A stretch of 64,000 nt of DNA, from the NCBI GenBank assembly GCA_001515945.1, contig LOER01000004.1, positions 62,001 through 126,000 of the forward strand, given 5' to 3'. This DNA comes from Desulfitibacter sp. BRH_c19 (GTDB lineage: Bacteria > Bacillota > DSM-16504 > Desulfitibacterales > Desulfitibacteraceae). Shown here in pieces: positions 7,743 through 63,746 of the stretch (position 1 is its first letter; each line of letters opens with the position of its first letter). The translations under genes were made by a program, and so were the position numbers. The notes below the pieces were generated by a model. That model worked only from the letters and a program-made list of their open reading frames with translations. It made no database searches and had not been told where the DNA came from.

Positions 7743-8858
7743 TTATTTAACAATACCATACTGAGTAATGTCTACAGATACATTAACATTGATATCTACG
7801 TAGGGATAATGCTCCCTCCAGTTTATTTCATTGAAGACGTCAAAGTATTTTGCGCGAAATCTTTTACCTAAACCCAGGGGATCAGAGTTAACCTCCTGCA
7901 TCTTTTGGACAGTCTTTTTGAATTCTGCTTTTAGATATTCTGCTACCTCAGCTTCAAGCTTTTTCTTGAAATCGTCATTACTTAAATCCATGGATAGACT
8001 GCTGGTGGATTGGTCTAGCCTTAGTTCCATATCCACATCCATAGTGAAGGAAATGTTTCCATCAACTAATTCTGGTGTAATCTTCCTGGTGGTTTTTTTT
8101 GTGATAAAACCATATTCATTATCTACCCTTGGGTAGAAAAAAGTTGGTTGTGCCCCTTTCGCTAGAATAGTGAACCAAATATTTTGCTGACCTTCTAGAT
8201 AACCAACAAGCTTATCCTTCTTAAATAGTGCTATATTTTTTATATATACTCCATTTTCTAGAACTATTATTGCAGGTGCGGTAGGATCTCTACCAACTTC
8301 GTAGTCCATTGCCTGTTGTCGAAAGTGGAGAAGTAGTGTTGATGGCATTATTTCATCGGCTAAAACTAGGGTATCTAATAAAGTTTTAATATATATGCCA
8401 ACTCTTGGCTTATCCATGAAATTGGTGGCAATTATTTCTTTTGCAGGATCTTTACATATGACCAAATCGGCTAAACTAGATACCTCGGGATCCCTGTATA
8501 AGGTATCAAATAAGGCAAGTAAGCCGCCTTTTTTTGCGACATTTTCATGAACCAAGAGTACCTGCAAATGATCAGGTACATACACCCTTCCTCCTACCTT
8601 ATGGATGAACTCTACAGCATCCAGGATAGACCTTGCTTTAGTACTTAATACCTCAATGTTTTCCTCTGCATCTTCACTAAAAACAGGGCTACTAAAAGTA
8701 AAAATGTATAGTTCTGGATCATCCTCATCCAAATCAATTCCAAGGGATATTACAAAGCCCACCGTCTCTACGGGAGTTGTATCCCAACAGCCAGTGAGTG
8801 TAAAAGATACAATAATAATCAAAATAATTATTGATATAAGTTTGAGTTTACTTGTCAT
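7743..8858 (-). CDS. gerAC: Ger(x)C family spore germination lipoprotein (GerAC type)
   Basis: A 371-residue lipoprotein, third gene of a gerA operon. A signal peptide ends in the lipobox LTGC (Cys about residue 24), followed by WDTTPVETVGFVISLGID, the usual Ger(x)C start. The C-terminal half has the family's LGLGKRFRAKYFDVFNEINWREHYP pattern (residues near the end; LGLGKRFR is the core). It anchors in the inner spore membrane and completes the germinant receptor with the A and B subunits. It overlaps the gerAB gene by eleven bases. There is no room for a separate terminator between it and the convergent UxaA gene. Confidence 0.93.
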   Translation of the reverse strand: MTSKLKLISIIILIIIVSFTLTGCWDTTPVETVGFVISLGIDLDEDDPELYIFTFSSPVFSEDAEENIEVLSTKARSILDAVEFIHKVGGRVYVPDHLQVLLVHENVAKKGGLLALFDTLYRDPEVSSLADLVICKDPAKEIIATNFMDKPRVGIYIKTLLDTLVLADEIMPSTLLLHFRQQAMDYEVGRDPTAPAIIVLENGVYIKNIALFKKDKLVGYLEGQQNIWFTILAKGAQPTFFYPRVDNEYGFITKKTTRKITPELVDGNISFTMDVDMELRLDQSTSSLSMDLSNDDFKKKLEAEVAEYLKAEFKKTVQKMQEVNSDPLGLGKRFRAKYFDVFNEINWREHYPYVDINVNVSVDITQYGIVK

Positions 8859-9954
8859 GTTTTTTTGACCTCCATTTTTTGAGGTAATAGATTATCAAAA
8901 GCATAAAAGGGATTATGGAGATTAAGGCAATGCCAACGAACCCAAGTGAATCTAGTATACTTAGTACCTGATTTAGGTCTTTAATTAATATTGTAGAAAC
9001 AATATATATAATTCCACCAATAGAAAGCACACTAATTTGAAAACTTTTTAGATTGAGAAGCTTATGCAATGTATATGCAGCCCCCCACTGATAGGCGGCT
9101 ACTGTAACAATAACAAGAAGTAGCCAAAAGCTTAAGACTAGCACCTCGAACCTTTGGAAAAAGGTGAATTGCAGAATCTTCAACATTTGGAGTGAAGGCC
9201 AAATCTGTTTGACAATATCCATTGGAGAAAAGAAAATAGTTGAAGCTATGACAGTCAGTGCATAAGCTGCTATTGTAAGCCAATTTCCAACGGAAGCAGC
9301 GATAAGTACATCCTTCTTTCTATCCACAAAGGGATATAAGAGAAGTAAAAACTCAAGACCTACCAATGCGAAGGAAGCTCCAAGTGTTCCTTTAATTATG
9401 CCGTAGAGTCCAGATTGACCCACTGGTAAGATATTTAGAATATCTCCTTGGGTAATTGGTACAATAAGTATCAATATAATCCACCAAGTTAAAGCAAATA
9501 CAATAAAAGAAAATCTGGCCAATACCTTTACTCCATTAGCAATTATGTAGGAAGCTGGCACTAAACTGAATAAGACAAGAATAAAAAATGGTGTTTCACG
9601 TAAGGCCCATATCCTAAGAACGAACGCAAAGACGTTGGCGATAGAAGCCGAAGTGATTATGAAATACAGCATAATTCCAGCAGAAAAGAGCTTGCCAAGA
9701 AATTTTCCCAAGAGCTTGTTTACATAATCTATAAGGCTGTCTTCTGGAAAACAGCTTGCCAAATGGATCATTAAGAAAATAGCTGTTTGAGCCAGAAATC
9801 CCACAATGATTATAGAAATCCAAGCATCAGGACCAGCACCTGCTTCGAAAACTGTTCTATATAGGGACAAAATACCTACACCAACTTGAATGCCTGGTAT
9901 CAAAAAAATTAGTTGAAAGCTTGTGATTGTATTTTTCCCACCTAACTGCTTCAT
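8848..9954 (-). CDS. gerAB: Endospore germination permease (GerAB type)
   Basis: A 368-residue integral membrane protein with about ten hydrophobic helices, of the APC-superfamily GerAB group. The N-terminal ISLYRT/GVGILSL-type helix and long hydrophobic runs throughout support this. In characterised receptors the B subunit binds the germinant, often an amino acid. The gene overlaps both neighbours by a few bases, which implies translational coupling in the order A, B, C. The germinant cannot be told from sequence. Confidence 0.93.
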   Translation of the reverse strand: MKQLGGKNTITSFQLIFLIPGIQVGVGILSLYRTVFEAGAGPDAWISIIIVGFLAQTAIFLMIHLASCFPEDSLIDYVNKLLGKFLGKLFSAGIMLYFIITSASIANVFAFVLRIWALRETPFFILVLFSLVPASYIIANGVKVLARFSFIVFALTWWIILILIVPITQGDILNILPVGQSGLYGIIKGTLGASFALVGLEFLLLLYPFVDRKKDVLIAASVGNWLTIAAYALTVIASTIFFSPMDIVKQIWPSLQMLKILQFTFFQRFEVLVLSFWLLLVIVTVAAYQWGAAYTLHKLLNLKSFQISVLSIGGIIYIVSTILIKDLNQVLSILDSLGFVGIALISIIPFMLLIIYYLKKWRSKKHDK

Positions 9955-11453
9955 TTTTTCCTCCGATTATTGACAATTCTCTTTGAATCCCTTGCACTAG
10001 CAGGTCGCTTGGTCATTAAAAAAGGGGGCAAGCGTAAGAATGTGTCCTGCATATCTCTTGTTCTAAAGGGTGATATTGAGGTTAGATATGGTATGCCAAC
10101 GGTTTCTATAATGCATAAGTGTGCTATCATAAATGCAAGACCCAATAATAATCCCACAAAACCAAAGAAATATCCCAGTATCATAAGTGGAAAACGGATA
10201 AATCTAAGAGTTAAACCAAATTCAAAGGTAGGAAGTACAAAGGTAGCAATGGTAGTAACGGCAACAACAATAACCATAATATTACTTGCTAGCCCTGCTT
10301 GAACAGCTGCATCCCCTATAACTATGGCTCCTACTATACCTATAGTTTGACCAAGTGGTCCAGGGAGTCTAATACCGGCTTCTCGCAAAATTTCGATGGT
10401 AATCTCCATTAAAAAAGCTTCAATTAAGGGCGGAAAGGGAACTCTAGATCTAGATTCTGCTATAATCACTAGAAACCCAATAGGCAGGATCTCGTGATTT
10501 AGAGATATTATTGCAATATAAAAACCTGGGAGACTTGAAGCTATTATGAAACTGACCCACCTAATAAGTCTAAGCAAAGAACCAAATATCCAAGGTGTAT
10601 TATATTCGTCTAGTGTTTGAAAAAAGACTGTCATTGGAGCAGGTATTATTATGGCATCAGGCTGACCATCCACCAGGATTACTGCCCTGCCCTCCGACAG
10701 GTTTGCTGCAGCCGAGTCAGGTCTTTCTGTCCTTAACGTTTGAGGAAAAGGAGAACTAGGGTGGTCAGTTATAAACTCGTTAAACTGACCTGTACCTACA
10801 ATTACATCTGTTTTAATGGATTTTAGACGTTTTTCTATTTCCTTTAAAACGTTTTGCTCTATTAGCGTTTCTATGTATACAAGTTGAATCATTGTTTTGG
10901 ATTTTGTACCAATAACAAATGTTTTAAATTTGAGCTCACTAGATTTTATTAACCTTCTAATAAGTGCAGTATTTTCCCCTAGGATCTCGGTAAACCCTAT
11001 TCTGGGTCCCCGTGCCTGGCCCTCATTTTCAGGATCCTTTGCAGGGCGCTTTGGAAAGCCTTTAAGTTCTATCATCCAAGCTTTTTCATAACTTTCTGCG
11101 AAGAATAATACAAACCCCTGCACTAAAAAATCCATTGCTTCATCCAGATTACATACTTCACTTATATTACCAATGGAATCTTCTAATTCTGAGATTACAA
11201 TTGCTTGAGCAGAGCCCTTTGACACATGATTTCTGATGGGTTTTAATACATCTCTGTTAAGGAGGTTTATGTCAATTGAGTTATCAAGATATGCTATTCC
11301 ATAGAGTGCTTTTTTGTTGGAGGTATTGGTTATTCTTTTGCATATTATTTCACTATTAACAAAAAAGTACTCAAGTACTGATAAATTGTTTTCTACTTTT
11401 TTATCAATGTAATGGATCTTATCTTTATATTCCTTTAGCTCATTTAGGTCCAT
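9951..11453 (-). CDS. gerAA: Spore germination protein GerAA
   Basis: A 500-residue receptor A subunit. The first 280 or so residues form the soluble N-terminal domain (SKGSAQAIVISELEDSIGN, then VGTGQFNEFITDHPSSPFPQT). The family motif GRAVILVDGQPDAIIIPAP precedes about five membrane helices with ESRSRVPFPPLIEAFLMEI and LPGPLGQTIGIVGAIVIGDAAV (only the cores named). A basic C-terminal tail ends in RRKK. A ribosome binding site (GGGGAGG) lies just upstream. It heads the gerA operon, which is normally expressed in the forespore under SigG. I could not place a convincing SigG promoter. Confidence 0.94.
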   Translation of the reverse strand: MDLNELKEYKDKIHYIDKKVENNLSVLEYFFVNSEIICKRITNTSNKKALYGIAYLDNSIDINLLNRDVLKPIRNHVSKGSAQAIVISELEDSIGNISEVCNLDEAMDFLVQGFVLFFAESYEKAWMIELKGFPKRPAKDPENEGQARGPRIGFTEILGENTALIRRLIKSSELKFKTFVIGTKSKTMIQLVYIETLIEQNVLKEIEKRLKSIKTDVIVGTGQFNEFITDHPSSPFPQTLRTERPDSAAANLSEGRAVILVDGQPDAIIIPAPMTVFFQTLDEYNTPWIFGSLLRLIRWVSFIIASSLPGFYIAIISLNHEILPIGFLVIIAESRSRVPFPPLIEAFLMEITIEILREAGIRLPGPLGQTIGIVGAIVIGDAAVQAGLASNIMVIVVAVTTIATFVLPTFEFGLTLRFIRFPLMILGYFFGFVGLLLGLAFMIAHLCIIETVGIPYLTSISPFRTRDMQDTFLRLPPFLMTKRPASARDSKRIVNNRRKK

Positions 11454-51544: not shown

Positions 51545-53380
51545 ATGTGTGGAATAGTTGGTTATATTGGTAAAGCGAAAGCAGTTCCTATTCTAGTGGA
51601 AGGTCTAAAAAAGCTAGAGTACAGGGGATATGACTCTGCTGGTTTGGCAGTTCTGGAGAATAGCGTGTTGGAGGTTGTAAAAACAAAGGGTAAAATGAAG
51701 GTTTTAGAAGAAAAGATAAATGGTAGTCTTAATGGATGCAATATTGGAATTGGCCATACACGTTGGGCTACCCACGGAAAACCTTCTGATACAAACTCCC
51801 ATCCTCATAAGGACTGTAGTGGTAAACTAGCAGTAGTTCATAATGGTATCATAGAAAATTATCAATCACTAAAGGAATGGCTTCAGGAAAAAGGTCATAG
51901 GTTTGTTTCTGAGACTGATACTGAAGTTTTGCCTCACATCATTGAAGAGTTCTATAGTGAAACTAAGGATTTATTAAGTGCAATTAAGATGGCAGCTGCA
52001 AAAATTGAAGGCTCTTATGCAATGGTTGTACTATGTAAGGATTACCCGGGAGAGATTTTTGCAGCACGTAAAGATAGCCCTTTGATTGTAGGCTTAGGAG
52101 AAGGAGAGAACTTTTTTGCTTCTGATATTCCTGCAATATTAAACCATACAAGAAGGATATATATCTTAGATGATGGAGAAATTGCTAGGATTTCTCATAC
52201 TGAAGTAGAGGTTTTTAGCGCTAATGGTAGTAAGGCAGATAAAGTTGAAACATATATAGATTGGGATGCCGAAGCAGCTGAAAAGGGTGGATATAGCCAC
52301 TTCATGTTAAAGGAAATCCATGAGCAGCCAGAGGCAGTACGTAAGACATTATCAGGAAGAATAGATGCATGTGCAGGTAAAGTAAACCTAAGTGAGATCT
52401 CACTTTCACAGGAATATCTAAAAGGCATTAAGAATATTGCAATTGTGGCCTGTGGAACTGCATCCTATGCTGGTTTAGTAGGAAAAAATGTTATTGAAAA
52501 ATTAACAAGGATACCTGTAATGTGGGATATTGCTAGTGAATTCCGCTACAGGGACCCCTTAGTAGATGAAAAGACATTAATGATAGTAATTAGCCAATCA
52601 GGTGAAACTGCAGATACACTAGCAGCCTTAAGAGAAGGAAAACAAAAAGGTGCTAGAGTTCTAGCAATTACAAATGTTAATGGAAGCTCCATTTCTAGAG
52701 AAGCCGATCAGGTTTTATATACATTGGCAGGACCTGAAATTGCAGTAGCATCTACAAAAGCCTATGTAACTCAATTAATAGCTATGTATTTATTAGCTTA
52801 TGATATAGCTGATAAGGTAGGTACATTGGCCGACGTTGAAATAGCTCAAGGAGTTTATACTCTTACCAAGCTTTCTGAACAAATCCAGGAAGTACTCAAG
52901 TGTGAAGATGCTATTAAGGAGTGGGCAAAAGAAATTTCTAATTGGGATGATGTATACTTCCTAGGCAGAGGCATTGACTACAATGTAGCCCAAGAAGGTC
53001 AGTTAAAGCTTAAAGAAATTTCATATATTCATGCTGAAGCACTAGCTGCAGGTGAAATGAAACACGGCACCATAGCTTTAATTGAAGACGGAACTCCAGT
53101 AGTGGCTCTAGCAACCCAGAATGCTCTATTTGACAAAATGCTAAGCAACATCCAGGAAGTTCAGGCACGAGGTGCAAAGGTCACAGCTTTAACCTTTGAA
53201 GGAAATACTGAAATTGAAAAATCAGCAGAAAGGGTAATCTACATCCCAAAAACACTTCCCATCATAGCACCAGTACTAACAGTAGTACCACTTCAGCTAC
53301 TGGCATATTACACAGCAATAGCCAGAGGCAGCGACGTCGATATGCCAAGAAATTTAGCAAAATCAGTGACAGTAGAATAA
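51545..53380 (+). CDS. glmS: Glutamine-fructose-6-phosphate aminotransferase
   Basis: A 611-residue enzyme. The N-terminal glutaminase begins MCGIVGYIG with the nucleophile Cys2, and GHTRWATHGKPSD binds glutamine. Two SIS domains follow (VACGTASYAG; SQSGETADTLAALREGKQKG core) and the C-terminus ends DMPRNLAKSVTVE, as is standard. It makes glucosamine-6-phosphate, the signal for the ribozyme just upstream. A rho-independent terminator follows at about 170 bases. Confidence 0.97.
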   Translation: MCGIVGYIGKAKAVPILVEGLKKLEYRGYDSAGLAVLENSVLEVVKTKGKMKVLEEKINGSLNGCNIGIGHTRWATHGKPSDTNSHPHKDCSGKLAVVHNGIIENYQSLKEWLQEKGHRFVSETDTEVLPHIIEEFYSETKDLLSAIKMAAAKIEGSYAMVVLCKDYPGEIFAARKDSPLIVGLGEGENFFASDIPAILNHTRRIYILDDGEIARISHTEVEVFSANGSKADKVETYIDWDAEAAEKGGYSHFMLKEIHEQPEAVRKTLSGRIDACAGKVNLSEISLSQEYLKGIKNIAIVACGTASYAGLVGKNVIEKLTRIPVMWDIASEFRYRDPLVDEKTLMIVISQSGETADTLAALREGKQKGARVLAITNVNGSSISREADQVLYTLAGPEIAVASTKAYVTQLIAMYLLAYDIADKVGTLADVEIAQGVYTLTKLSEQIQEVLKCEDAIKEWAKEISNWDDVYFLGRGIDYNVAQEGQLKLKEISYIHAEALAAGEMKHGTIALIEDGTPVVALATQNALFDKMLSNIQEVQARGAKVTALTFEGNTEIEKSAERVIYIPKTLPIIAPVLTVVPLQLLAYYTAIARGSDVDMPRNLAKSVTVE

Positions 53381-53843
53381 ATAAAGTCTTTCCAGGGCTG
53401 GATGATGTTCAGTAATAATAAAGTTGTTGACGGCTGCAATAAGGTTTGTCAGTAGTTGCAATAAAATTAAGATAATGTCAGTAAGTGAAAGTGCTTTGTA
53501 GCTATTCCATGAAGTATTTCTACAAGACTAGAATTAATTTAGATTATTATTTAATGGTTATTAGAAAAGAGCAGTATACCTTTTCTAATAACCATTTTTA
53601 TTAAGACTCGTCCATTTAGATCATAAGGAAATTTCTACCGAAATCCATTTATTGTGCTATTTACTAATGTTTAACGCTGCTTTATACAAGATGGAGCAAT
53701 CAAAAAATGGAAAACTGTAGAGAGATATCCTCCATCACATAATTATAAAGAAATGTGACCATTAAACCTAACTAGAATTAGAGTAATTATACCATGGACT
53801 GGGAATAATATTATTATTCTAATTTAAGGCAGGTAATATATAA
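53381..53843. other. Intergenic region after glmS
   Basis: About 460 bases. It holds the terminator described separately and otherwise AT-rich sequence with no supported gene. The last 20 bases before the membrane protein gene contain a weak ribosome binding site (AGGCAGG). Confidence 0.4.
53553..53602 (+). terminator. Rho-independent terminator after glmS
   Basis: A 17-base perfect stem (AATGGTTATTAGAAAAG with its complement), a ten-base loop and a U-run. It ends the cdaA-glmS transcript. Confidence 0.9.
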
Positions 53844-54293
53844 ATGAAAAGTGATAGAGCCACAGCAGGAGCTATAGCAGGTATATTAGGTGCTATTACA
53901 CAAGATATTTATGGTTTAACTGTAAAAGGGATTGGATTAACAGATAGGGCTTTTATAGATTTTGCAAAAGTAATTGCTTTCAGGACTGCAACAAGTGGAA
54001 CACTATCATTTATTACAGGGTTGGTTGTTCATCTAACTTTGGGGATGATGTTTGGGTTGTTATTTTCATATATAATTTCAATGACTTCCAGCAACTTCTA
54101 TTATTATAAGGCAATTGGATATAGTGCTGGATTATGGTTTTGGACTTTAGCAGTAGGATCTATGGTTAATCTACCATTATTTGCTGGAATACCAGTTATT
54201 TCTCAGATTACTACATTTGTTGGGGCGCTTATATTTGGCTTAGCCATGGCTTATTCTTTAAAGTTATTGGAAAACAAAACAGAAATTGTTTAA
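53844..54293 (+). CDS. Small four-helix membrane protein, cluster family member A
   Basis: A 149-residue hydrophobic protein with four predicted helices (about residues 8-28, 55-82, 93-112, 122-142). It belongs to a family with five intact members and one pseudogene between 53.8 and 61.0 kb. Family marks are the start KSDRATAGAIAG, the centre RAFIDFAKVIAF, SSNFYYYKAIGYSAGLWFW and the closing LKLLENK. It is the only member on the plus strand. It is more diverged than B, D and E: the family's DWA-YG centre is changed. I do not recognise a named family. Function unknown. Confidence 0.7.
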   Translation: MKSDRATAGAIAGILGAITQDIYGLTVKGIGLTDRAFIDFAKVIAFRTATSGTLSFITGLVVHLTLGMMFGLLFSYIISMTSSNFYYYKAIGYSAGLWFWTLAVGSMVNLPLFAGIPVISQITTFVGALIFGLAMAYSLKLLENKTEIV

Positions 54294-54478
54294 CCAGGGT
54301 GATTAAATAAAATTTATTTGTTGATTTACAGTTTAAGTAGTAGGTGATTATTAATTAATCATCTTAATATGGGAACACTTTAAAACTATAAATGTTTGTG
54401 ATACCTTATTGTATATGTCTCTGCGTTTAGATGAAATAGCATTATTGGATTATAATGTAAAAGTTCTTGTTCCTAAAT

Positions 54479-54700
54479 TCAGGAAACTGTCTTATAACTA
54501 CTATCTAACCAGCCAAGAGCACCAGACCACATCAATTGTAATAATGTATAAAATTCTTCCCCAAGAGTTTTTGGCAATGTTCCGTATAACATTACTGCTG
54601 ACCAGTCGAGAAAACGCATTGTGGTTAGATGTAGCAACCCAAGTCATCTATTTTCTTTATTCCCATTTAGGAGGAGGCTATGATAATCTTGCAAGGCAAC
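54479..54700 (-). pseudogene. Decayed member of the four-helix membrane protein family
   Basis: On the minus strand one frame reads RFLDWSAVMLYG, then LMWSGALG joined directly to WLDSSYKTVS and a stop. The first two match the centre of intact members (for example RFIDWAAVILYG and ILWSGTLG in member D). WLD-KTVS matches their C-terminus (WLDNKIKTVS in member B). About 70 residues between are deleted. Upstream, IDDLGCYI and IIAS lie in another frame with stops. It sits directly after member B on the same strand. Confidence 0.75.
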
Positions 54701-54733
54701 CACATGAGTTGAATGTGGACCCAGGTGCTTTTT

Positions 54734-55195
54734 CTAGGGGCTTACTGTTTTTATTTTATTATCAAGCCAATGGACAATCTTAGCCATTGTCAGTCCCCAG
54801 ATTGACGCACCCACAAAGCTGGACACAGTTGTTTTTAGAGGTACAAAGTTCAGTTCCGGTACTTTAAATAAATGAAACACAGCTAAAATTATAAACCATA
54901 ATGATACACCAAAGAACCAACCTTTTAGAAGCATATTATTACTCGTGAGAAGTCTTTGTATTAATATAACGAATACTATTCCTAACAGAGCATGGAAAAA
55001 TAATGTGCCCAATGTGGCAAAAATCTGATATGACAAAAATACTGGTAGTTCCCCATACATCATTATGCCAGCAAAATCCAGCCAGCGAAGTGTAGAAATA
55101 CCAAAGTAAAAAGCCAATAAATCATAAACTTTTGTTACAACACCGGCAACAAAACCTGCGATCATCCCTCTCGTAACTCTGTCTTTTATAGTCAT
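54734..55195 (-). CDS. Small four-helix membrane protein, cluster family member B
   Basis: A 153-residue family member: KDRVTRGMIAGFVAGV at the start, RWLDFAGIMMYG in the centre, SNNMLLKGWFFGVSLWF, GASIWGLTMAKIVHWLD near the end. Four hydrophobic helices are predicted. An AGGGAGA ribosome binding site lies just before the ATG. The decayed sixth copy follows its 3' end. Function unknown; the shared KG-FG segment and the polar DFA/DWA centre may be important to the fold or to a ligand. Confidence 0.75.
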   Translation of the reverse strand: MTIKDRVTRGMIAGFVAGVVTKVYDLLAFYFGISTLRWLDFAGIMMYGELPVFLSYQIFATLGTLFFHALLGIVFVILIQRLLTSNNMLLKGWFFGVSLWFIILAVFHLFKVPELNFVPLKTTVSSFVGASIWGLTMAKIVHWLDNKIKTVSP

Positions 55196-55619
55196 TAAGA
55201 AATCTCCCTTACTTCTTAGTTATTTTGTCGGATTTTGTTTTCTGCTTCTGAAAATAGATTTCACGGTTTACTATTTTACCAGGGCATTTTCGTTACCACC
55301 ATATTAGCGTTTGATAATCTGCTGGTATTTTCCTTAACATTTGTAAACAACAGTCTATATCATAAAGTTGGAATCATGTTTAAAATGTTTTACTACTGCA
55401 TTACTGACATTAATAAGCAGATATTACTACTTCTTTGGACAGGTTATGGCTTATATTTAGGATTTCTTATTATTAGTAAATTATTCAGTATGATGGAGCC
55501 TCCCATAGAGAGTGGGCAATTAACATTACCATCTATCCTTCTTCTTACCTAATAACTACTTGAGAAATTGCAGTTTAAAGATATTTTTCGTATCAAAAAC
55601 AACTTGAAATAAGAAGCAG
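55196..55619. other. Intergenic region, no recognised gene
   Basis: About 420 AT-rich bases. A plus-strand reading frame of 105 codons is present (55235-55552) and is hydrophobic in part, but starts at TTG without a ribosome binding site and resembles nothing I know. It may be relic coding DNA. The transposase remnant begins at the right edge. Confidence 0.35.
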
Positions 55620-55860
55620 TTTCAGAATATTACATCTCAAGCGAAAGCTGAATTGGGTGTTGACATCATTACGGCCATTGCCGATAAAGGATACTATTCA
55701 GCCTCTAGTTTTACTAATGTAAAGAAGATAATATAATGCCATTAGTATCAAAAGCTGATCTTGCGATATTTCAGCAACTGAAGAGTACGGTAAATCACAG
55801 ACTGCTACCTTCCGACTTCCCCCATGGATTATTCGATTACCTAGTCTGTATGATTTGGAG
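55620..55860 (+). pseudogene. IS1182-like transposase remnant
   Basis: One frame reads SQAKAELGVDIITAIADKGY then YSASSF and stops; the next frame continues MPLVSKADLAIFQQL and DFPHGLFDYLVC. This follows the order of a conserved part of IS1182-family transposases (A-ELGV--LTV-ADKGYYS, then a VPK segment, then F-YD---D-Y-CP). There is at least one frameshift, and neither end of the element is seen. It is dead. Confidence 0.65.
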
Positions 55861-55861
55861 G

Positions 55862-56446
55862 TTATTTCTTTTTGTTTTGGGAACGGACAGAAATAATCTT
55901 TTTAGGTTTTTTAGGAGCTATAGTACTATTAAAAATTTTGGGTCTCAGAATATCGATTCGTTCTAGGGTTTCAGCCTTTTTCTGTGGTTTCGAGGATATG
56001 ATGTGGCTAAAATACTTTCCCAGAGCCCAGCCAGAAACAAGCCCTATGGAAAGATGCGACATAAGCAAAAGAAAGTCTGGCAAGGGCGTTAATAGTGAAG
56101 CCCTGGTAATATCCAGTGCCATTCCGATTCCGAATGTAATCACATATACTAATGAACCTAACGCTATTCCTTTAAAGACAGCATAGTCTGAACCAGTATA
56201 GCGCAGGAGGTAAAAGAGTATCACTCCAAAAGTCCCTGCTATTGTCCAGTCGGTTATAGCACCCGTTACGAGACTGAGGGGAGCATCTAAGTTTTCTTTG
56301 GAATAATAAAAGCCAGCAGCAATATGGACAAATGTATATCTAACCCATCCCATAAAGTAAAATGACCAAGTAAGTGCCTCTTTGACAAGATTCCCCATCC
56401 ATCCTGCTAGAACTCCAGCAACAATAGAATCTCTTACCTTAAACAT
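55862..56446 (-). CDS. Four-helix membrane protein, cluster family member C, with basic tail
   Basis: A 194-residue protein. The first 150 residues share the family plan: VRDSIVAGVLAGWMGNL, YTFVHIAAGFYYS in the centre, GSDYAVFKGIALGSLVY. It then carries about 45 extra residues, strongly basic (SSKPQKKAE, PKKPKKI, QNKKK). It is the most diverged member; YTFVHIAAGFYY resembles the DUF-type 'YspA/YoaK' helix only loosely. The tail abuts the transposase remnant, so it may have been added by read-out into adjacent DNA after an insertion. Confidence 0.65.
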   Translation of the reverse strand: MFKVRDSIVAGVLAGWMGNLVKEALTWSFYFMGWVRYTFVHIAAGFYYSKENLDAPLSLVTGAITDWTIAGTFGVILFYLLRYTGSDYAVFKGIALGSLVYVITFGIGMALDITRASLLTPLPDFLLLMSHLSIGLVSGWALGKYFSHIISSKPQKKAETLERIDILRPKIFNSTIAPKKPKKIISVRSQNKKK

Positions 56447-56645
56447 TAATGTTCACCTACTATTTTAATAAGATAAATATCTTTAATTACATAACCTCTT
56501 GAATAAAAATATTTAAGCTTAGTATTACCTAGTAGTTATTAATAATTCTATTGTTAATGAAAATAAAGCTGCATATTCTCTATAATATCTATTTTTTTGT
56601 AACGAATCGGGTTTTACAAACACTTATTAGTAGGAGGGTGATTGA

Positions 56646-56780
56646 GTGCAGGATATGGAAAAGCTTTATAATGATTATTTTCAAACGGTTTGCAAGTACC
56701 TGTTCTGCATGACTCATGATGCTGATTTGTCTGAAGAATTGACTCAGGAAACCTTCTTTACAAGAAGTGTCCTCAATGTA
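56646..56780 (+). pseudogene. Truncated ECF sigma factor (region 2 fragment)
   Basis: After a strong AGGAGGG site and a GTG start the protein reads VQDMEKLYNDYFQTVCKYLF then CMTHDADLSEELTQETFF, an excellent match to the start of sigma region 2 in ECF sigma factors. After ETFF the similarity stops and the frame runs on into the opposite strand of family member D. Region 4 and most of region 2 are lost, so no working sigma factor can be made. Confidence 0.75.
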
Positions 56781-56817
56781 AATAAGCTTTTTATTTATAT
56801 TAAAAATATGCTACTAA

Positions 56818-57267
56818 TTATATTCTTACCCTTGGTATTTCATCAAGCCATCGAAGTGTTTGAGCCGTTGTTAAACCCCAGATGGCACCACCCATATGAT
56901 TAGATACTACAGTAATAAACGAAGGTTCTTTTAGTATAGGCATTTGAAGAATGGTAGGTATGGCATAAGTAATAAATCCAACTAGTAATCCAAATACTGC
57001 TCCTTTAATTAAATATCTACTAGATGTTATATGGGGTATTAAAAATGCGAAAATGACCCCTAATGTTCCAGACCATAAAATTTGCATTACTAACGCGAAA
57101 AAACCCTCTGCATGACTAGTGGCGAATTGACCATATAAAATTACAGCTGCCCAATCAATAAACCGAATTATTTGCCAGTTAAAAATGCCTACAGCTATTA
57201 GAGTCCATAAATTCATTGCTATTCCACCAATAATTCCTGCTATTAATCCTCTTAAAAATCTATCCAT
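56818..57267 (-). CDS. Small four-helix membrane protein, cluster family member D
   Basis: A 149-residue family member: RFLRGLIAGIIGGIAMNLW, the centre IRFIDWAAVILYG, SSRYLIKGAVFGLLVGFI and GAIWGLTTAQTLRWLDE. Four helices are predicted. It is most like member E and the pseudogene. A GGGAGGC-type ribosome binding site precedes the ATG. It is convergent with the truncated sigma factor. Confidence 0.75.
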   Translation of the reverse strand: MDRFLRGLIAGIIGGIAMNLWTLIAVGIFNWQIIRFIDWAAVILYGQFATSHAEGFFALVMQILWSGTLGVIFAFLIPHITSSRYLIKGAVFGLLVGFITYAIPTILQMPILKEPSFITVVSNHMGGAIWGLTTAQTLRWLDEIPRVRI

Positions 57268-57315
57268 ATAAAATATTTGCCTCCCACAATAAGTTTTTAT
57301 AACACGATGGTATAA

Positions 57316-58032
57316 TTATCTATTTAAATTTCTATTATTGAATTTGAGCTGGTGATACCTTAAACTAACATGGTTCCAGATATGGTTGGCTTCTACTACT
57401 GAAATTTTTTCCTCTTTAACAGGTTTTGTAGTTTTATATGAAGGCATAATATCTTTCCAGCCCTTATTTTTACCTAACAGGACAAGTTTATGGTAATCAT
57501 TCAAATGGCTTGTTAAAAATTTCCTGAAAGTTCCTCTCAAGTTGTCGTTGGTTATTGAAGATATTATTGAGCGGCTCAAAGAAAATAGTTCTGCTAATAA
57601 ATCATGAAATAGTTTTCTAAAAATAAGCTCATCAGTCATTTCATTTAACTGTGTGGATACTTTTATTGTCCTGGGAGGTCTGTTAGGTGCTCTTATATTA
57701 AATTTCTCAGCTCTATCTTCCAATGTTCTTACTTGATGATTAAAATTGTGTAAATGAGCTTTAAGTAGCACGCTCAATTCTTTGTCATGCACAAAATTGT
57801 TCATCATATGATACGTTTCTATGCTGCTATATCTAGCTCTCAATAGGTTCCAAATATTAAAAGCCTCTTCAGTATCTATCTGTGTTGTCCCTGCTGGATT
57901 ATTTTTTAATATGGAGATACTCAAAGGTTTTTCACTCCTAGGGTTTTTTAATAGTTTTTCTAACTCCAAAATTCCATATACATCAATAGATGAATTAAAG
58001 CTGTTTTTCTTAAATTCTACTGTGAAATCCAC
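57316..58032 (-). CDS. DUF3231-like helical protein
   Basis: A 238-residue protein, mainly helical. The middle (EEAFNIWNLLRARYSSIETYHM core; then LNEMTDELIFRKLFHDLLAELFSLS) resembles one ferritin-like repeat of DUF3231 spore-coat-type proteins, and EANHIWNHVSLRYHQLKF looks like the start of a second repeat that is cut short. The start is GTG with no clear ribosome binding site, so the N-terminus is uncertain. The family link is by pattern only. Confidence 0.5.
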   Translation of the reverse strand: MDFTVEFKKNSFNSSIDVYGILELEKLLKNPRSEKPLSISILKNNPAGTTQIDTEEAFNIWNLLRARYSSIETYHMMNNFVHDKELSVLLKAHLHNFNHQVRTLEDRAEKFNIRAPNRPPRTIKVSTQLNEMTDELIFRKLFHDLLAELFSLSRSIISSITNDNLRGTFRKFLTSHLNDYHKLVLLGKNKGWKDIMPSYKTTKPVKEEKISVVEANHIWNHVSLRYHQLKFNNRNLNR

Positions 58033-58427
58033 TATCTATTACGCCACATTATAAAAATATACCAACATATATTATAAATCACCAAAATGCAATCATAGGT
58101 ATATTGGAGGTGAAAACATGTTTGCTAATATGTTTGAATATAAATATAATTTACTTTCTATTTTTTTAAGCTTAATGCACAGTTTGTGCAACAGAGCCAG
58201 TAGAGAATTATTAAAGGGGTGCATATGCACTCCTTTTTATAATGCACCAGAAACTAGACTTATTTGGAATACTTTGGAGATAATTATTCTTATTTTTATC
58301 TTTTCTGACATAGAGTTAATTAAAAGAATACTTTTTCTTAAGAATTAATAAATCATGACACAATATGACAAACTTCTTTTTATCGTGATGTTATGATTAT
58401 CCAGGTAAAGGGAGTTATGGAGGTGTT
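58033..58427. other. Intergenic region with an internal terminator
   Basis: About 395 bases between divergent genes. It contains GGAGGTG followed by ATG (58118) opening a 76-codon frame, GCACA-GTT-TGTGC, a GGCTCTGTTGCACAAA-like string on the minus strand that recalls IS termini, and a strong terminator. The reading frame runs through the terminator, so if translated only its first 30 or so codons would normally be made. Confidence 0.4.
58213..58238 (+). terminator. Rho-independent terminator upstream of the receiver gene
   Basis: An eleven-base stem, AAAGGGGTGCA with TGCACTCCTTT (one G-U pair), a two-base loop that would open in RNA, then U's. It lies 190 bases before the response regulator gene. 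Confidence 0.7.
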
Positions 58428-58793
58428 ATGAACTTGCAAAAACCTAGAATCGTCATTATTGATGACAACAAAGAGCTTTTAATGTTACTATGCGATTTTT
58501 TAGATATGGAAAGTAAATATACAGTTATAGGTTTAGAAGGAATATCAAACATCTATGAACTATCTGTCTTAAAGCCTTCTCTTATTCTATTAGACCTGTA
58601 TATGCCTACATTATCAGGACACGAAATTATGGAACTGAAGTGTGGAATACCGGAAATAGCAGATGTACCTGTTATACTTATCACAGGCTCAAAGGAAAGG
58701 GCAAAACAGGAAACACTAAACATGGCAAAAATAGTATTAGAAAAGCCCATTTCTCTTGATGAACTAGACTATTCGATTTCTCTTTTAATATAA
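58428..58793 (+). CDS. Single-domain response regulator (receiver only)
   Basis: A 121-residue protein that is only a receiver domain. The acidic pair is in VIIDDNKE, the phospho-acceptor Asp in LLDLYMP (about residue 56), the Thr/Ser in ITGS and the Lys in LEKPI. There is no output domain, so it probably works in a phosphorelay or by protein contact, like Spo0F or CheY. The histidine kinase gene follows after 21 bases. A GGAGGTG site precedes the ATG. Confidence 0.92.
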   Translation: MNLQKPRIVIIDDNKELLMLLCDFLDMESKYTVIGLEGISNIYELSVLKPSLILLDLYMPTLSGHEIMELKCGIPEIADVPVILITGSKERAKQETLNMAKIVLEKPISLDELDYSISLLI

Positions 58794-58814
58794 AATAATA
58801 GGGGGTAGCAGTTC

Positions 58815-60329
58815 GTGAGTATTAAAATGTTTTTTAAGAAAATGAGCTTATCAACACGTGTAGGAGTAATTGTATTTATAGCTTTATTTATATTTATTTG
58901 CCTATTTGGATACTTGATGATTTTAAGAGAATCAGAGAGCATCCTTAGCCAAACCTTGGATTTATTAGAAGATGTCTCTTTAGAAGCTGAAAAAGAGCTC
59001 TCTAAAAATATTGGATTTATTATTGAGGTAGAAAATAATCAGCAACTAACCCAAGAGCAAAAAATCATGACAATAAACCAAAAACTTGAGCCAGAATTTA
59101 CGCATTATGCTGAAAATGAACAAGAGTTGTGTATTGGTTATTATTCAAAGGAACTTGGAGTTATTGCCATAAATATGCAACGGGATGACCTTCCACTAGG
59201 ATATAAGCTGGACTCAAATCATCCTTCCACTAAGCTATATACACAAGGAAAAATTCAAAGGGAGATTGGCACAGTAGTCCGTGGACAGGTAGTGCGTTAT
59301 GCAAAGCCAGTTTATTGGGAAGGTGAACCCATAGGACATATTTGGACTAATATTCCTTACAACAATTATCTTCACAAAGTGTATAGTACTGTTCCACTCT
59401 TCCTAGCTTTAACTGCTTTAGCAATGCTCTTATCTATAATGGTGGCTCTATTCATATCGCTTAAAATTAAAAAATACATGATGATATTTTCCAAGAATAT
59501 TGAAGCTTTTGGGAATAATCCATCTGATAATCTTGGGTTAACTAATACTATGAATAGTTTACCAATAGAATTTCATCCTTTAGTCAGAAAATATCATTCT
59601 CAGGTAGTACAGATTAGGGAATTAATTAAAGAACTATCTATTTCATCAAGAATGGCTGCATTTGGAGACATGATTATGACAGTTAGCCATGATATTCGAA
59701 ATCCATTGGCAATTATAGCAATGTCAGCACAAATGGGAAAAAAGAAACAAGATATTGTTAAAAATGTTGAATACTTTGAGACAATAATAAAATCATCTAA
59801 TCTCATTGAGCAAATTCTAAAGAAATACTTAATCCTAGCTAAAAATCCAAATACTAAACATGAAAGGTTATTTATAGACGATATAATTAATGACGTTTTA
59901 GAGATATATGATAACCTCGAACTAACAAAGGGTATTAAATTGAATTATTATTTTGAAGAAGACTTGCCCAGTATTATGGGTGATGAAGTTAGTTTAAAAC
60001 AAGTAGTAATCAATATAATATCCAACGCAATTCAAGCAACGCCACCTGGGGGTCGTATATCCATAAATGTTTCCACTAAAGAAAATAGTGTTTTAATAGA
60101 CATGGCAAATACAGGAGTAGCTATTCCCCCTGAAATCCAGAAAGAAATCTTCACTAAATTCTTTACTAAAAAAGATGGAGGCACAGGGCTTGGGCTTGCA
60201 TTTGTTCAAAAGGTTGTATTAGAGCATAGAGGGAAGATATGGGTCGAATCATACCCTGAACGAACTACATTCTTTATCCAGTTGCCAATTGCCAATGATA
60301 ATAATAGTACCCTCCTTGTTAATCCATAA
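58815..60329 (+). CDS. Membrane sensor histidine kinase
   Basis: A 504-residue kinase. Membrane helices are at about residues 15-38 and 192-215, with an extracellular sensor of about 150 residues between (GTVVRGQVVRYAKPVYWEGEP core, cache-like). The phospho-accepting His is in SHDIRNPLAI (about residue 292). ATPase motifs are NIISNAIQAT and GTGLGLAFVQKVV. It starts at GTG after AGGGGG. With the receiver-only protein it may feed a phosphorelay such as the sporulation relay; this is inference. Confidence 0.92.
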   Translation: MSIKMFFKKMSLSTRVGVIVFIALFIFICLFGYLMILRESESILSQTLDLLEDVSLEAEKELSKNIGFIIEVENNQQLTQEQKIMTINQKLEPEFTHYAENEQELCIGYYSKELGVIAINMQRDDLPLGYKLDSNHPSTKLYTQGKIQREIGTVVRGQVVRYAKPVYWEGEPIGHIWTNIPYNNYLHKVYSTVPLFLALTALAMLLSIMVALFISLKIKKYMMIFSKNIEAFGNNPSDNLGLTNTMNSLPIEFHPLVRKYHSQVVQIRELIKELSISSRMAAFGDMIMTVSHDIRNPLAIIAMSAQMGKKKQDIVKNVEYFETIIKSSNLIEQILKKYLILAKNPNTKHERLFIDDIINDVLEIYDNLELTKGIKLNYYFEEDLPSIMGDEVSLKQVVINIISNAIQATPPGGRISINVSTKENSVLIDMANTGVAIPPEIQKEIFTKFFTKKDGGTGLGLAFVQKVVLEHRGKIWVESYPERTTFFIQLPIANDNNSTLLVNP

Positions 60330-60503
60330 TAGTTTCCCAAAGCGCTATATATTTTATTACAAAGTAAATTCTTAACATGGCGATATCTTAAGTTTTTTCT
60401 CCATTGTTAACAAAGGTGCTGAAGGGGAGTATAAATCGTCTTAGAACAAACACAAGAATTAAGGAGGAATTATTATTAAAAAACATTACTTATTGATAAT
60501 GTG

Positions 60504-60953
60504 TTAAACTTTAAAGCTTGCTTTATCAAACCAATTCAAAGTGAAAGTCAATAGTAAGCCATAAACAGATGAAGAAATGAAATGGGATATTGTGGTATTA
60601 AGAGTATGTTGTTCAAGGCTTGGAAGTCTTATAGCAATGGAAATGGCGTATAAAGCAAACCAAGCTATCAATCCAAATAGCAACCCTTTTATTAAATAAT
60701 TTCCACTCGTCAATTTAAGCAATATAACAGATAATATGAAGCCTAAGAATCCTGCAAAAAATAGTTGACCCATTTGAGCAAAAATTATTTCTGCTAAGGT
60801 ATTGGGTAGGTGTCCATAAATGGCGATAGCAGCCCAATCTAATAAACGCTCCTCATGAAATCCAATAATAAACCCTATCCAATCTACTATATTCATTGCA
60901 ATTCCTGCAATTATACCGCTAATGAAACCTGCTGTAACTCTATCTTTCACCAT
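60504..60953 (-). CDS. Small four-helix membrane protein, cluster family member E
   Basis: A 149-residue family member, the clearest of the set: VKDRVTAGFISGIIAGIAMN, LLDWAAIAIYG, SGNYLIKGLLFGLIAWFALYA and YGLLLTFTLNWFD. Four helices are predicted. The ATG used follows GGAGG; a further 25 codons are open upstream but have no support. On the other strand a ribosome binding site and a few codons of a lost gene run into its 3' end. Confidence 0.75.
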   Translation of the reverse strand: MVKDRVTAGFISGIIAGIAMNIVDWIGFIIGFHEERLLDWAAIAIYGHLPNTLAEIIFAQMGQLFFAGFLGFILSVILLKLTSGNYLIKGLLFGLIAWFALYAISIAIRLPSLEQHTLNTTISHFISSSVYGLLLTFTLNWFDKASFKV

Positions 60954-61278
60954 AATTCCTCCATTTCGGTCTTCTATTAAGCATACTTTAGTATGGGTAT
61001 TTTTGGCTAAAATTATTACATTTCTCAATAATAAGTTACCAAATGAATAACATGAGCATGAGATGTTATAGGTAACTAACAGGAAAATATTAGTTCAGCA
61101 TTATGGTTTACAGTAGAGGCTTAATATGTTAGCCTAATACTGCACGATTTCTAATCAAGAAGGTTACTTGCTTAAGTGAATATAAATATATTAGTATCCT
61201 AACTATGAAATCTAGTACTAGACAAGATTCAATAGCAGAAAAGCAAAATAAACTAATATCAACTGGGGGTAGATTAAA
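60954..61278. other. Intergenic region between member E and the SurA-N-like gene
   Basis: About 325 AT-rich bases between divergent genes. Two small hairpins are seen (GCATAC/GTATG and AGGCT/AGCCT) but no gene. A GGGGG site lies at the right end just before the unusual start of the next gene. Confidence 0.4.
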
Positions 61279-61995
61279 ATTAAATCCAATAAAATCTTTA
61301 GAATCCTAAAAGTGCTACTTATTCTAGTAGTTTTATTAGTTGTAGTAACAGGATGTAATGAACAGGGAACAAATGAAACTGAACAAAAAAATCATGTAGC
61401 TATTGTCAATGGTGAAAGCATTCTTGAGGATTCTTATGAGATACAACTATCAGAGTTGAAGGAAATGGTTCAAATGCAATACGGGATAGATGTGGAAGAA
61501 GATGAAGAGTTATTAGCTGAGTTGCAGAATCAAGCACTTGAAACTTTGATCAATAAAACTCTTGTTTTACAAGAAAGCGAGAGTAGAGGTATTGAAGTAT
61601 CTCAATCTGAGGTAGATGAAAGTATAGATCAAATAAAATCACAATTTGAAGATGATGCTAAATTTGAAGAAGCACTAGCTGCAGAAGGCCTGGAAATAGA
61701 AGAATTAGCTGACCGGATAAAGGAAGATATGATAATGGAAGCTCTAGTTGCTGAAGTAGCTCCAAGCACCACTATCTCTGAAGATGAAATTTCTGATGAA
61801 GAAATTGAAGGTTTTTATGAACAACAAATGCAAATGGCAGAAGCACAAGGGATTGAAATTCCTTCCTTAGAAGAAGCAGAAGCGCAAATTGTAGCCGCTA
61901 TTATACAGCAGAAGGAACAAGCAGAGCAACAGCAGGTTACACAAGAATTTATAGCAGGGTTAAGAGAGAAAAGTGAAATTGAGGTATTACTTTAA
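61279..61995 (+). CDS. SurA-N-like lipoprotein, apparent ATT start
   Basis: A 238-residue lipoprotein. From ATT the N-terminus reads KSNKIFRILK, then LLILVVLLVVVTGC, a textbook lipoprotein signal with basic start and lipobox (Cys about residue 26). A GGGGG ribosome binding site lies nine bases before this ATT. No ATG, GTG or TTG lies between the upstream stop and the GTG at 61312, and that GTG would remove the basic part of the signal. The rest (VAIVNGESILEDSYE; LINKTLVLQESESRGIEVSQSEVDE core) is the SurA N-terminal chaperone domain. The parvulin PPIase domain of PrsA/SurA is absent, and the C-terminal half is rich in Glu and Gln. It probably helps folding of exported proteins. Confidence 0.75.
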   Translation: MKSNKIFRILKVLLILVVLLVVVTGCNEQGTNETEQKNHVAIVNGESILEDSYEIQLSELKEMVQMQYGIDVEEDEELLAELQNQALETLINKTLVLQESESRGIEVSQSEVDESIDQIKSQFEDDAKFEEALAAEGLEIEELADRIKEDMIMEALVAEVAPSTTISEDEISDEEIEGFYEQQMQMAEAQGIEIPSLEEAEAQIVAAIIQQKEQAEQQQVTQEFIAGLREKSEIEVLL

Positions 61996-62267: not shown

Positions 62268-63746
62268 ATGCTGAATCCATCTAGAAATACTAGGCATGAA
62301 ATTTCTTGGTCAAAAAAGCGAATTATTTTTTGTGTAGTAGGTTTAATAATTATGCTGATTATTATAAATTCAATGTATGGATATTTAAAAGCCTCACCTG
62401 AAGGAGTATCGTTTGAAGGGGAGCTACGCAGGGGACAAGTTGAGTTTCTATTCGATTTAACATACCAAAGAGATGGCGATACTGTTATGGAACAAGTAAT
62501 ATTTGAACGTATACTTGCTATGATTGATGATTCCGAGGACTTCATTATTCTAGATATGTTCCTGTTCAATGACGAATATGAACGTACAGTTAAATATCCA
62601 GCTGTCTCAGGTTATTTAGCAGATTCTTTAATACGAAAAAAGCAGCAAGACCCTACTATTGAAATTATTGTGATAACTGATCGAATTAATACTTTCTATG
62701 GATCTTATTCTCCTGAGCATTTAATTCACTTAGAACAAGAAGGCATCCAATTAGTTTATACTGACATGACAATTATGCGGGATTCAAATCCAAGCTACTC
62801 AGGTTTATGGCGAACCATGATCCAATGGTTTGGTACATCCGAGAATGGCTGGCTCCCTAATCCATTTAGTCCCGATTCACCTGTTGTTACAATACGCTCC
62901 TATCTTGAACTAATGAATTTTAAAGCTAACCATCGAAAAGTGGTAATTACCGAAAAAGAAGCACTTGTTACTTCTGAAAATCCACATGATGCAAGTGCGT
63001 ACCACTCAAATATTGCTTTTGTAGTAAAAGGAGAAGTGGTAAATGATTTAATTGAGACAGAAAGAGCAGTTGCTGATATATCTGGTGCTAATACTGATCT
63101 CTTTGAAGCATTATCCATAAAAGATGCTGCTTTGGAGCAACTACCAGATGACTCTGGTTATAGTGTTCAGGTATTAACAGAAGGAAAAATAAAGCAACAT
63201 TTACTAAAAGATATAAGAGAAACTGAAGCAACAAATAAAATAAACATTGGTGCATTCTACCTTTCGGATCGTGATGTTGTCAAAGAACTAATCAAAGCCT
63301 CGGAACGCAAGGTGGAGATTAAAATAATCCTGGATGCAAATAAGGATGCTTTTGGAAGAGAAAAGAATGGTATTCCAAACAGGCCCGTTGCCCATGAATT
63401 AAAGAAGAATACAAACAATGCAATCAAGATTAAGTGGTATAACACAAATGGTGAACAGTATCATACAAAGTTAGTGATGATTGAAAAAAATACGGAGACA
63501 ATTTTATTAGGTGGCTCTGCCAATCTAACCAAAAGAAATATTGCTGACTTTAATTTAGAAACTAATATTAAGGTGATTGGAAGCCCTGATTCTGAAATAA
63601 TGCAGCAAGCTAGTAATTATTTTCAAAGACTTTGGTCAAATGAAGATGGAATATATACTCTTGATTATAATGTTTATGAAGACGACTCCATATTCAACCA
63701 GTTTTTATATAGATTTCAAGAGTGGAGTGGTATTTCTACCTTTTAA
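62268..63746 (+). CDS. Phospholipase D family protein (cardiolipin synthase-like)
   Basis: A 492-residue protein with one N-terminal membrane helix (about residues 16-36) and two HKD motifs: NHRKVVITEKEALVTSENPHD near residue 221 (core HRKVVI) and YHTKLVMIEK with GGSANLTKRN near residue 398. Two motifs are needed for one active site, so it should be catalytic. It may make cardiolipin or hydrolyse phospholipids at the outer membrane face. The ATG follows an AAGGAG site. Confidence 0.87.
   Translation: MLNPSRNTRHEISWSKKRIIFCVVGLIIMLIIINSMYGYLKASPEGVSFEGELRRGQVEFLFDLTYQRDGDTVMEQVIFERILAMIDDSEDFIILDMFLFNDEYERTVKYPAVSGYLADSLIRKKQQDPTIEIIVITDRINTFYGSYSPEHLIHLEQEGIQLVYTDMTIMRDSNPSYSGLWRTMIQWFGTSENGWLPNPFSPDSPVVTIRSYLELMNFKANHRKVVITEKEALVTSENPHDASAYHSNIAFVVKGEVVNDLIETERAVADISGANTDLFEALSIKDAALEQLPDDSGYSVQVLTEGKIKQHLLKDIRETEATNKINIGAFYLSDRDVVKELIKASERKVEIKIILDANKDAFGREKNGIPNRPVAHELKKNTNNAIKIKWYNTNGEQYHTKLVMIEKNTETILLGGSANLTKRNIADFNLETNIKVIGSPDSEIMQQASNYFQRLWSNEDGIYTLDYNVYEDDSIFNQFLYRFQEWSGISTF

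Follow-up and report, generated by a model that had tools for sequence, protein, structure and literature searches.

The 64,000-nucleotide stretch of Desulfitibacter sp. BRH_c19 analysed here (contig LOER01000004.1, positions 62,001 to 126,000, hereafter called "the window") carries, behind glmS, five intact open reading frames (ORFs), named A to E, for membrane proteins of ~150–190 aa, together with one dead copy. We found that the family of A–E is large and old, with many copies per genome; its members are four-helix membrane proteins and occur in spore-forming Bacillota. These proteins are very likely spore or forespore proteins, and we are equally confident that their family is distantly homologous to YqhR/FigP. 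In spores, ion channels of the GerA type set off germination; FigP, an amplifier described not long ago, has been studied in Bacillus. The reading that we prefer, with a probability of roughly 0.5, is that the family consists of divergent, multi-copy FigP-like proteins of the spore inner membrane, which probably modulate ion channels of the GerA/SpoVAF type. If this is true, many clostridial spore-formers hold an unrecognised set of germination-linked membrane proteins that may tune the germination of their spores and could help explain strain differences in germination.

A diverged family with many copies per genome

The original prediction, made from the sequence of the window, was of a single, much-diverged family of small membrane proteins with five intact members and one dead copy within 7 kb (53844-60953), and the ORFs and profile searches bear this out. 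A profile of A–E recovers each of the five at E=5e-54 or better, and an iterated profile whose starting alignment was wider and lacked A and C recovers both A (E=2.5e-32) and C (E=4e-38), with pairwise identities among A–E of 13–38%. The sequence plan that all five were said to share holds for A, B, D, and E, whereas C keeps only part of it. The AlphaFold2 model of E (pLDDT 90.5) has four long helices, the first two of which are separated by a short one, and several glycine positions are conserved in the family, as in helix packing. Foldseek found nothing similar to this model among solved structures (best E=1.3), and an NCBIfam search of the members gave no useful match.

The family had been called unknown, which is correct inasmuch as no function is assigned to it, but too strong given the distant homology to YqhR/FigP and the matches to DUF6789 (PF20587), which D and E reach along their whole length with E=2.6e-5 and 7.2e-5, respectively, below the curated cut-off. 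This cut-off (27.1 bits) is unreached in the whole genome, the best score being the 24.8 bits of member D, and 13 of 36 diverse members match DUF6789 at E<=0.05. DUF6789 is itself a Pfam family without an assigned function and, differently from the members described here, reaches organisms that do not form spores. DUF1440 (PF07274) and CbtA (PF09490), likewise families of membrane proteins, give isolated weak profile matches to B (CbtA to E as well), but the E-values are 0.08 or worse and there is almost no support from other members. The profile searches placed the members neither in different known families nor among common single-copy housekeeping proteins.

When this genome (G000, 3.85 Mb) was searched with the A–E profile, 18 matches were obtained on nine contigs, ~16 of them full-length. 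Besides the five members and the fragment in the window, there are pairs on C6 and C16, three copies on C19 (one a fragment), and single copies on C7, C11, C17, C25, and C36, giving ~11 further full-length copies outside the window. Across the phylum, the family is present in 59 of 250 genomes, several of which have 10 or more copies (a count of 15 in this search stands for at least 15).

Distant homology to YqhR/FigP

Profile–profile comparison of the family with YqhR gave a probability of 97.2% (E=4e-11) over 139 columns, that is, the full length, whereas a reversed YqhR alignment gave 9.3% and 79 other membrane proteins at most 5.6%. Single YqhR sequences gave mostly 57–94% in the same comparison, with one at 9%. 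Compared by helix order, the AlphaFold2 model of E agrees with that of a YqhR, both having the four long helices and the short helix between helices 1 and 2. In B. subtilis, YqhR, renamed FigP, is the required partner of the SpoVAF ion channel, which amplifies germinant-receptor signals (PMC11837508, PMC11841064), and the figP and spoVAF mutants of B. anthracis behave accordingly (PMC13059800).

The present family differs from FigP in that the latter has one copy per genome in Bacilli, in contrast with the ~16 full-length copies found here, and in that the members are scattered, stand-alone genes below recognition by the YqhR profile PF11085, which gave no match in this genome at E<=0.01 (B reached only E=0.1). 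As in the organisms with FigP, a gene for the SpoVAF partner is presumably present, the spoVAF of this genome being named by its position. Our literature search found no description of FigP relatives outside the Bacilli or of a function of DUF6789; new with respect to the literature searched are the multi-copy branch in clostridia, the class of its promoters, and its connection with FigP, while a distant relative with a function was already known.

Germination genes and sigma-G-type promoters

GerA-family proteins were found in 214 of the 250 genomes, and these include all 59 genomes that have the family, which is present in none of the 36 GerA-negative genomes (P=2.6e-5, a statistic that ignores the kinship of the genomes). 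In G000, a GerA-family gene, the presumed spoVAF, lies directly behind spoVAE, near or behind the sigF operon, and the genome also has two receptor operons of the GerA type, of which one lies in the window, 42 kb from the cluster. The latter operon is a possible functional partner of the cluster members; its first gene is not directly preceded by a sigma-G-like site. Members were found within 10 kb of a gerA gene in four genomes, without a shared operon. A conserved operon partner was rejected after clustering the neighbours of 89 members, which are not conserved; the sole repeated close context is that of same-genus orthologues accompanied by a GerMN-like lipoprotein and a polysaccharide deacetylase.

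Given that the gene neighbours are not conserved, the upstream regions of the members were examined. De novo, the most enriched 7-mer was CATACTA, present in 7 of 85 members vs. 1 of 504 control genes of the same loci, and expectation-maximisation from random starting sites yielded, also de novo, a two-box motif consisting of gaATAAt, a gap of 14–15 bases, and n[AC]A[TA]A[AC]TAA, with a log-likelihood of 118, the other solutions listed reaching at most 64. The sigma-G consensus of B. subtilis is GHATR, 17–18 bases, CATWHTA, and the two-box motif is this sigma-G pattern. With a model seeded with this consensus and scored by leaving out one genome at a time, 50% of the members reach the threshold of 7 bits vs. 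11% of 502 controls (P=5e-15), and 8% do so in the reverse-strand control. The median distance from the end of a strong site to the start codon is 36 bases. As a positive control, 10 of 17 genes for small acid-soluble proteins (SASP) reach 7 bits, and among the control genes with the highest scores are a gerA A-subunit gene, a spoVT-like gene, and DUF3231 genes. The consensus sequences of sigma-F, -E, -K, -H, and -A showed little or no enrichment upstream of the members over the controls. Sigma-G-like -10 elements also occur upstream of several YqhR genes. In the window, sites above the threshold precede A, C, and E (Table 1). From these promoters, the homology to FigP, and the restriction to GerA-positive genomes, we infer that the member genes are probably transcribed in the forespore after engulfment and that their proteins would reside in the spore inner membrane.

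Table 1. Cluster members, sigma-G-like sites, and other features of the window (window positions; site scores from the leave-one-genome-out model).
Feature	Position	Strand	Description and support
GerA-type germinant receptor operon	7743..11453	-	complete, C, B, and A subunits; PF03323, PF03845, PF05504, PF25198
glmS	51545..53380	+	ORF; cluster boundary
Sigma-G-like site of A	53781..53811	+	GAGTAAT-15-GAATAATAT, 8.7 bits
Member A	53844..54293	+	149 aa, four-helix membrane protein; ORF, family profile
Dead first-half family copy	~54479..54637	-	profile match positions 30–72, E=9.5e-5; no full frame, stop upstream in frame
Member B	54734..55195	-	153 aa; ORF, family profile, tree
Possible transposase remnant	~55636-55733		judged by eye only
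Member C	55862..56446	-	194 aa, basic C-terminal tail; ORF, family profile, tree
Sigma-G-like site of C	56519..56548	-	GAATTAT-14-TAATACTAA, 11.2 bits
ECF sigma factor gene remnant	56646..56760 (end approximate)	+	SigM subfamily, E=1.4e-7 over 36 residues
Member D	56818..57267	-	149 aa; ORF, family profile, tree; DUF6789 below cut-off
DUF3231 gene	57316..58032	-	PF11553, E=1.2e-9
Orphan response regulator and histidine kinase pair	58428-60329		opposite strand, between D and E
Member E	60504..60953	-	149 aa from ATG start; ORF; DUF6789 below cut-off; AlphaFold2 model
Sigma-G-like site of E	60988..61018	-	TAATAAT-15-CCATACTAA, 13.0 bits
Parvulin-type-chaperone-like lipoprotein gene	61312-61995		cluster boundary
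Phospholipase-D-like protein gene	62268-63746		adjoins the cluster

Proposed role and alternative explanations

That the members might be alternative subunits of one membrane complex was already suggested in the original prediction, and this, or a role in sporulation, remains the best guess. Made in the forespore after engulfment, the proteins would be located in the spore inner membrane, where, by analogy with FigP of B. subtilis, they may work as small accessory components in assemblies with channel subunits of the GerA family, either SpoVAF or the A subunits of the germinant receptors, and thereby might set the strength of the amplification of ion release during germination. The paralogues would then be alternative or mixed partners of a few channels, and the cluster in the window a strain-variable set of FigP-like genes gathered behind glmS. 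Partnership with GerA/SpoVAF-type channels is the more tentative part of this proposal, and we would put it somewhat below an even chance. Still more speculative, and rather unlikely in its full form, is the wider idea that in many clostridial spore-formers 10–18 diverged FigP-like subunits per genome combine with a few GerA/SpoVAF channels and so make germination tunable or heterogeneous in a strain-specific manner, the glmS site being one of the hot spots where paralogues come and go.

Several findings weigh against the preferred FigP-like reading, the main weakness being that ~16 members face three GerA-family genes, so that there is no one-to-one partnership. In addition, none of the members stands in one operon together with a gerA or spoVA gene, B has no convincing sigma-G-like site (3.5 bits) and that of D is marginal (5.7 bits), sequence identity to YqhR is ~11%, and DUF6789 is matched in non-sporulating organisms too (among the control genomes, e.g., Haloferax, Methanosarcina, Deinobacterium, and Bacteroides), from which it follows that the fold as such is not spore-specific. 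The main rival explanation, to which we grant a substantial though minor share of probability, is that the members are constituents of the spore inner membrane that set its packing or permeability, and with it resistance or dormancy, without contacting GerA/SpoVAF at all. The sigma-G-type promoters, the many copies vs. few channels, the stand-alone genes, and the glycines conserved as in helix packing speak for it, whereas the sole characterised relative, FigP, works via SpoVAF (PMC11837508). The DUF6789 matches in the same control genomes would also suit an explanation in which these are general membrane or stress proteins that merely happen to be found in spore-formers, the link to FigP being a remote similarity of fold without a common function; this we consider improbable, since the promoter result was obtained with positive and negative controls and the family is restricted to GerA-positive genomes.

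Origin of the cluster behind glmS

Five members and a fragment within 7 kb look like the outcome of a recent local tandem duplication in this strain, and a local expansion had in fact been predicted, but the evidence contradicts it. The maximum-likelihood tree covers 84 members, and its 15 rows from G000 require 13 label changes; A, B, C, and E are each placed with members from other bacterial families (A with members of G060, G014, and G006), and D with a C6 member of G000 and one G014 member. The members of this genome are spread over nine contigs, identity among A–E is as low as given above, and the repeat search found no DNA repeats linking family copies and no trace of recent duplication. 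Local tandem expansion is thus rejected by the tree and the pairwise identities, and we regard it as extremely improbable. Since A–E fall in separate old clades and no DNA repeats link them, the cluster is a gathering of old paralogous lines and not a recent local amplification. Elsewhere in G000, the C19 member at L032:9119-10972 and the C7 member at L033:8627-9136 are 78% identical to each other and ~22% identical to the others.

The position directly 3' of glmS is the Tn7 attachment site in many bacteria. Directly behind glmS, G054 has genes with TnsA, Mu-transposase C-terminal, TniB/AAA, and TnsD/TniQ domains, and G137 has a TnsA gene followed by similar genes; in these two other genomes of the phylum, the Tn7-type genes downstream of glmS (TnsA, TnsB-like, TnsC/TniB-like, and TnsD/TniQ) lie at L196:2969-9524 and L197:2657-9103. 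In two same-genus genomes with an 88%-identical GlmS, no family member lies behind glmS in the ~4 and 9.5 kb covered, and the phospholipase-D-like gene adjoining the cluster has no match at E<=1e-10 in these two genomes or in one of the same order. The cluster thus varies between strains and occupies an insertion hot spot of a known type. It could accordingly be the cargo or the remains of a mobile element, e.g., a Tn7-like one, inserted behind glmS, as this location, the Tn7-type genes there in G054 and G137, the absence of members in the same-genus genomes, and the possible transposase remnant would suggest. We nevertheless find such an origin rather doubtful, given that the likeness to Tn7-like cargo is confined to the location, that no tns genes or paired end repeats were recognised in 53300-61400, and that most other family copies are located elsewhere in the genome. 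In any case, an origin of this kind concerns the provenance of the genes and not their function, and it is compatible with the FigP-like reading.

Other genes within the cluster

Fragments of a sigma factor and a transposase had been reported among the members. The former is a remnant of an extracytoplasmic function (ECF) sigma factor gene resembling SigM, while the latter is a possible remnant at most. The DUF3231 gene of the cluster, whose end lies 49 bases from the start of D on the same strand, shows 75% identity over 194 aa to L142_5 (325 aa) and is probably truncated, having a single DUF3231 domain vs. two in its same-genus relatives. The C19 copy at L032:9119-10972 adjoins a DUF3231 gene as well, and several stand-alone DUF3231 genes carry the sigma-G-like motif. 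DUF3231 and the family co-occur in 11 of 61 genomes (17 have the one and 17 the other), which is suggestive but confounded by relatedness. In the same-genus genome G001 (L141:1323-6147), the A, B, and C genes of a gerA-type operon are directly followed by a DUF3231 gene in the same orientation, as if the operon had a fourth gene, and this arrangement links the cluster's own DUF3231 gene with the theme of germination.

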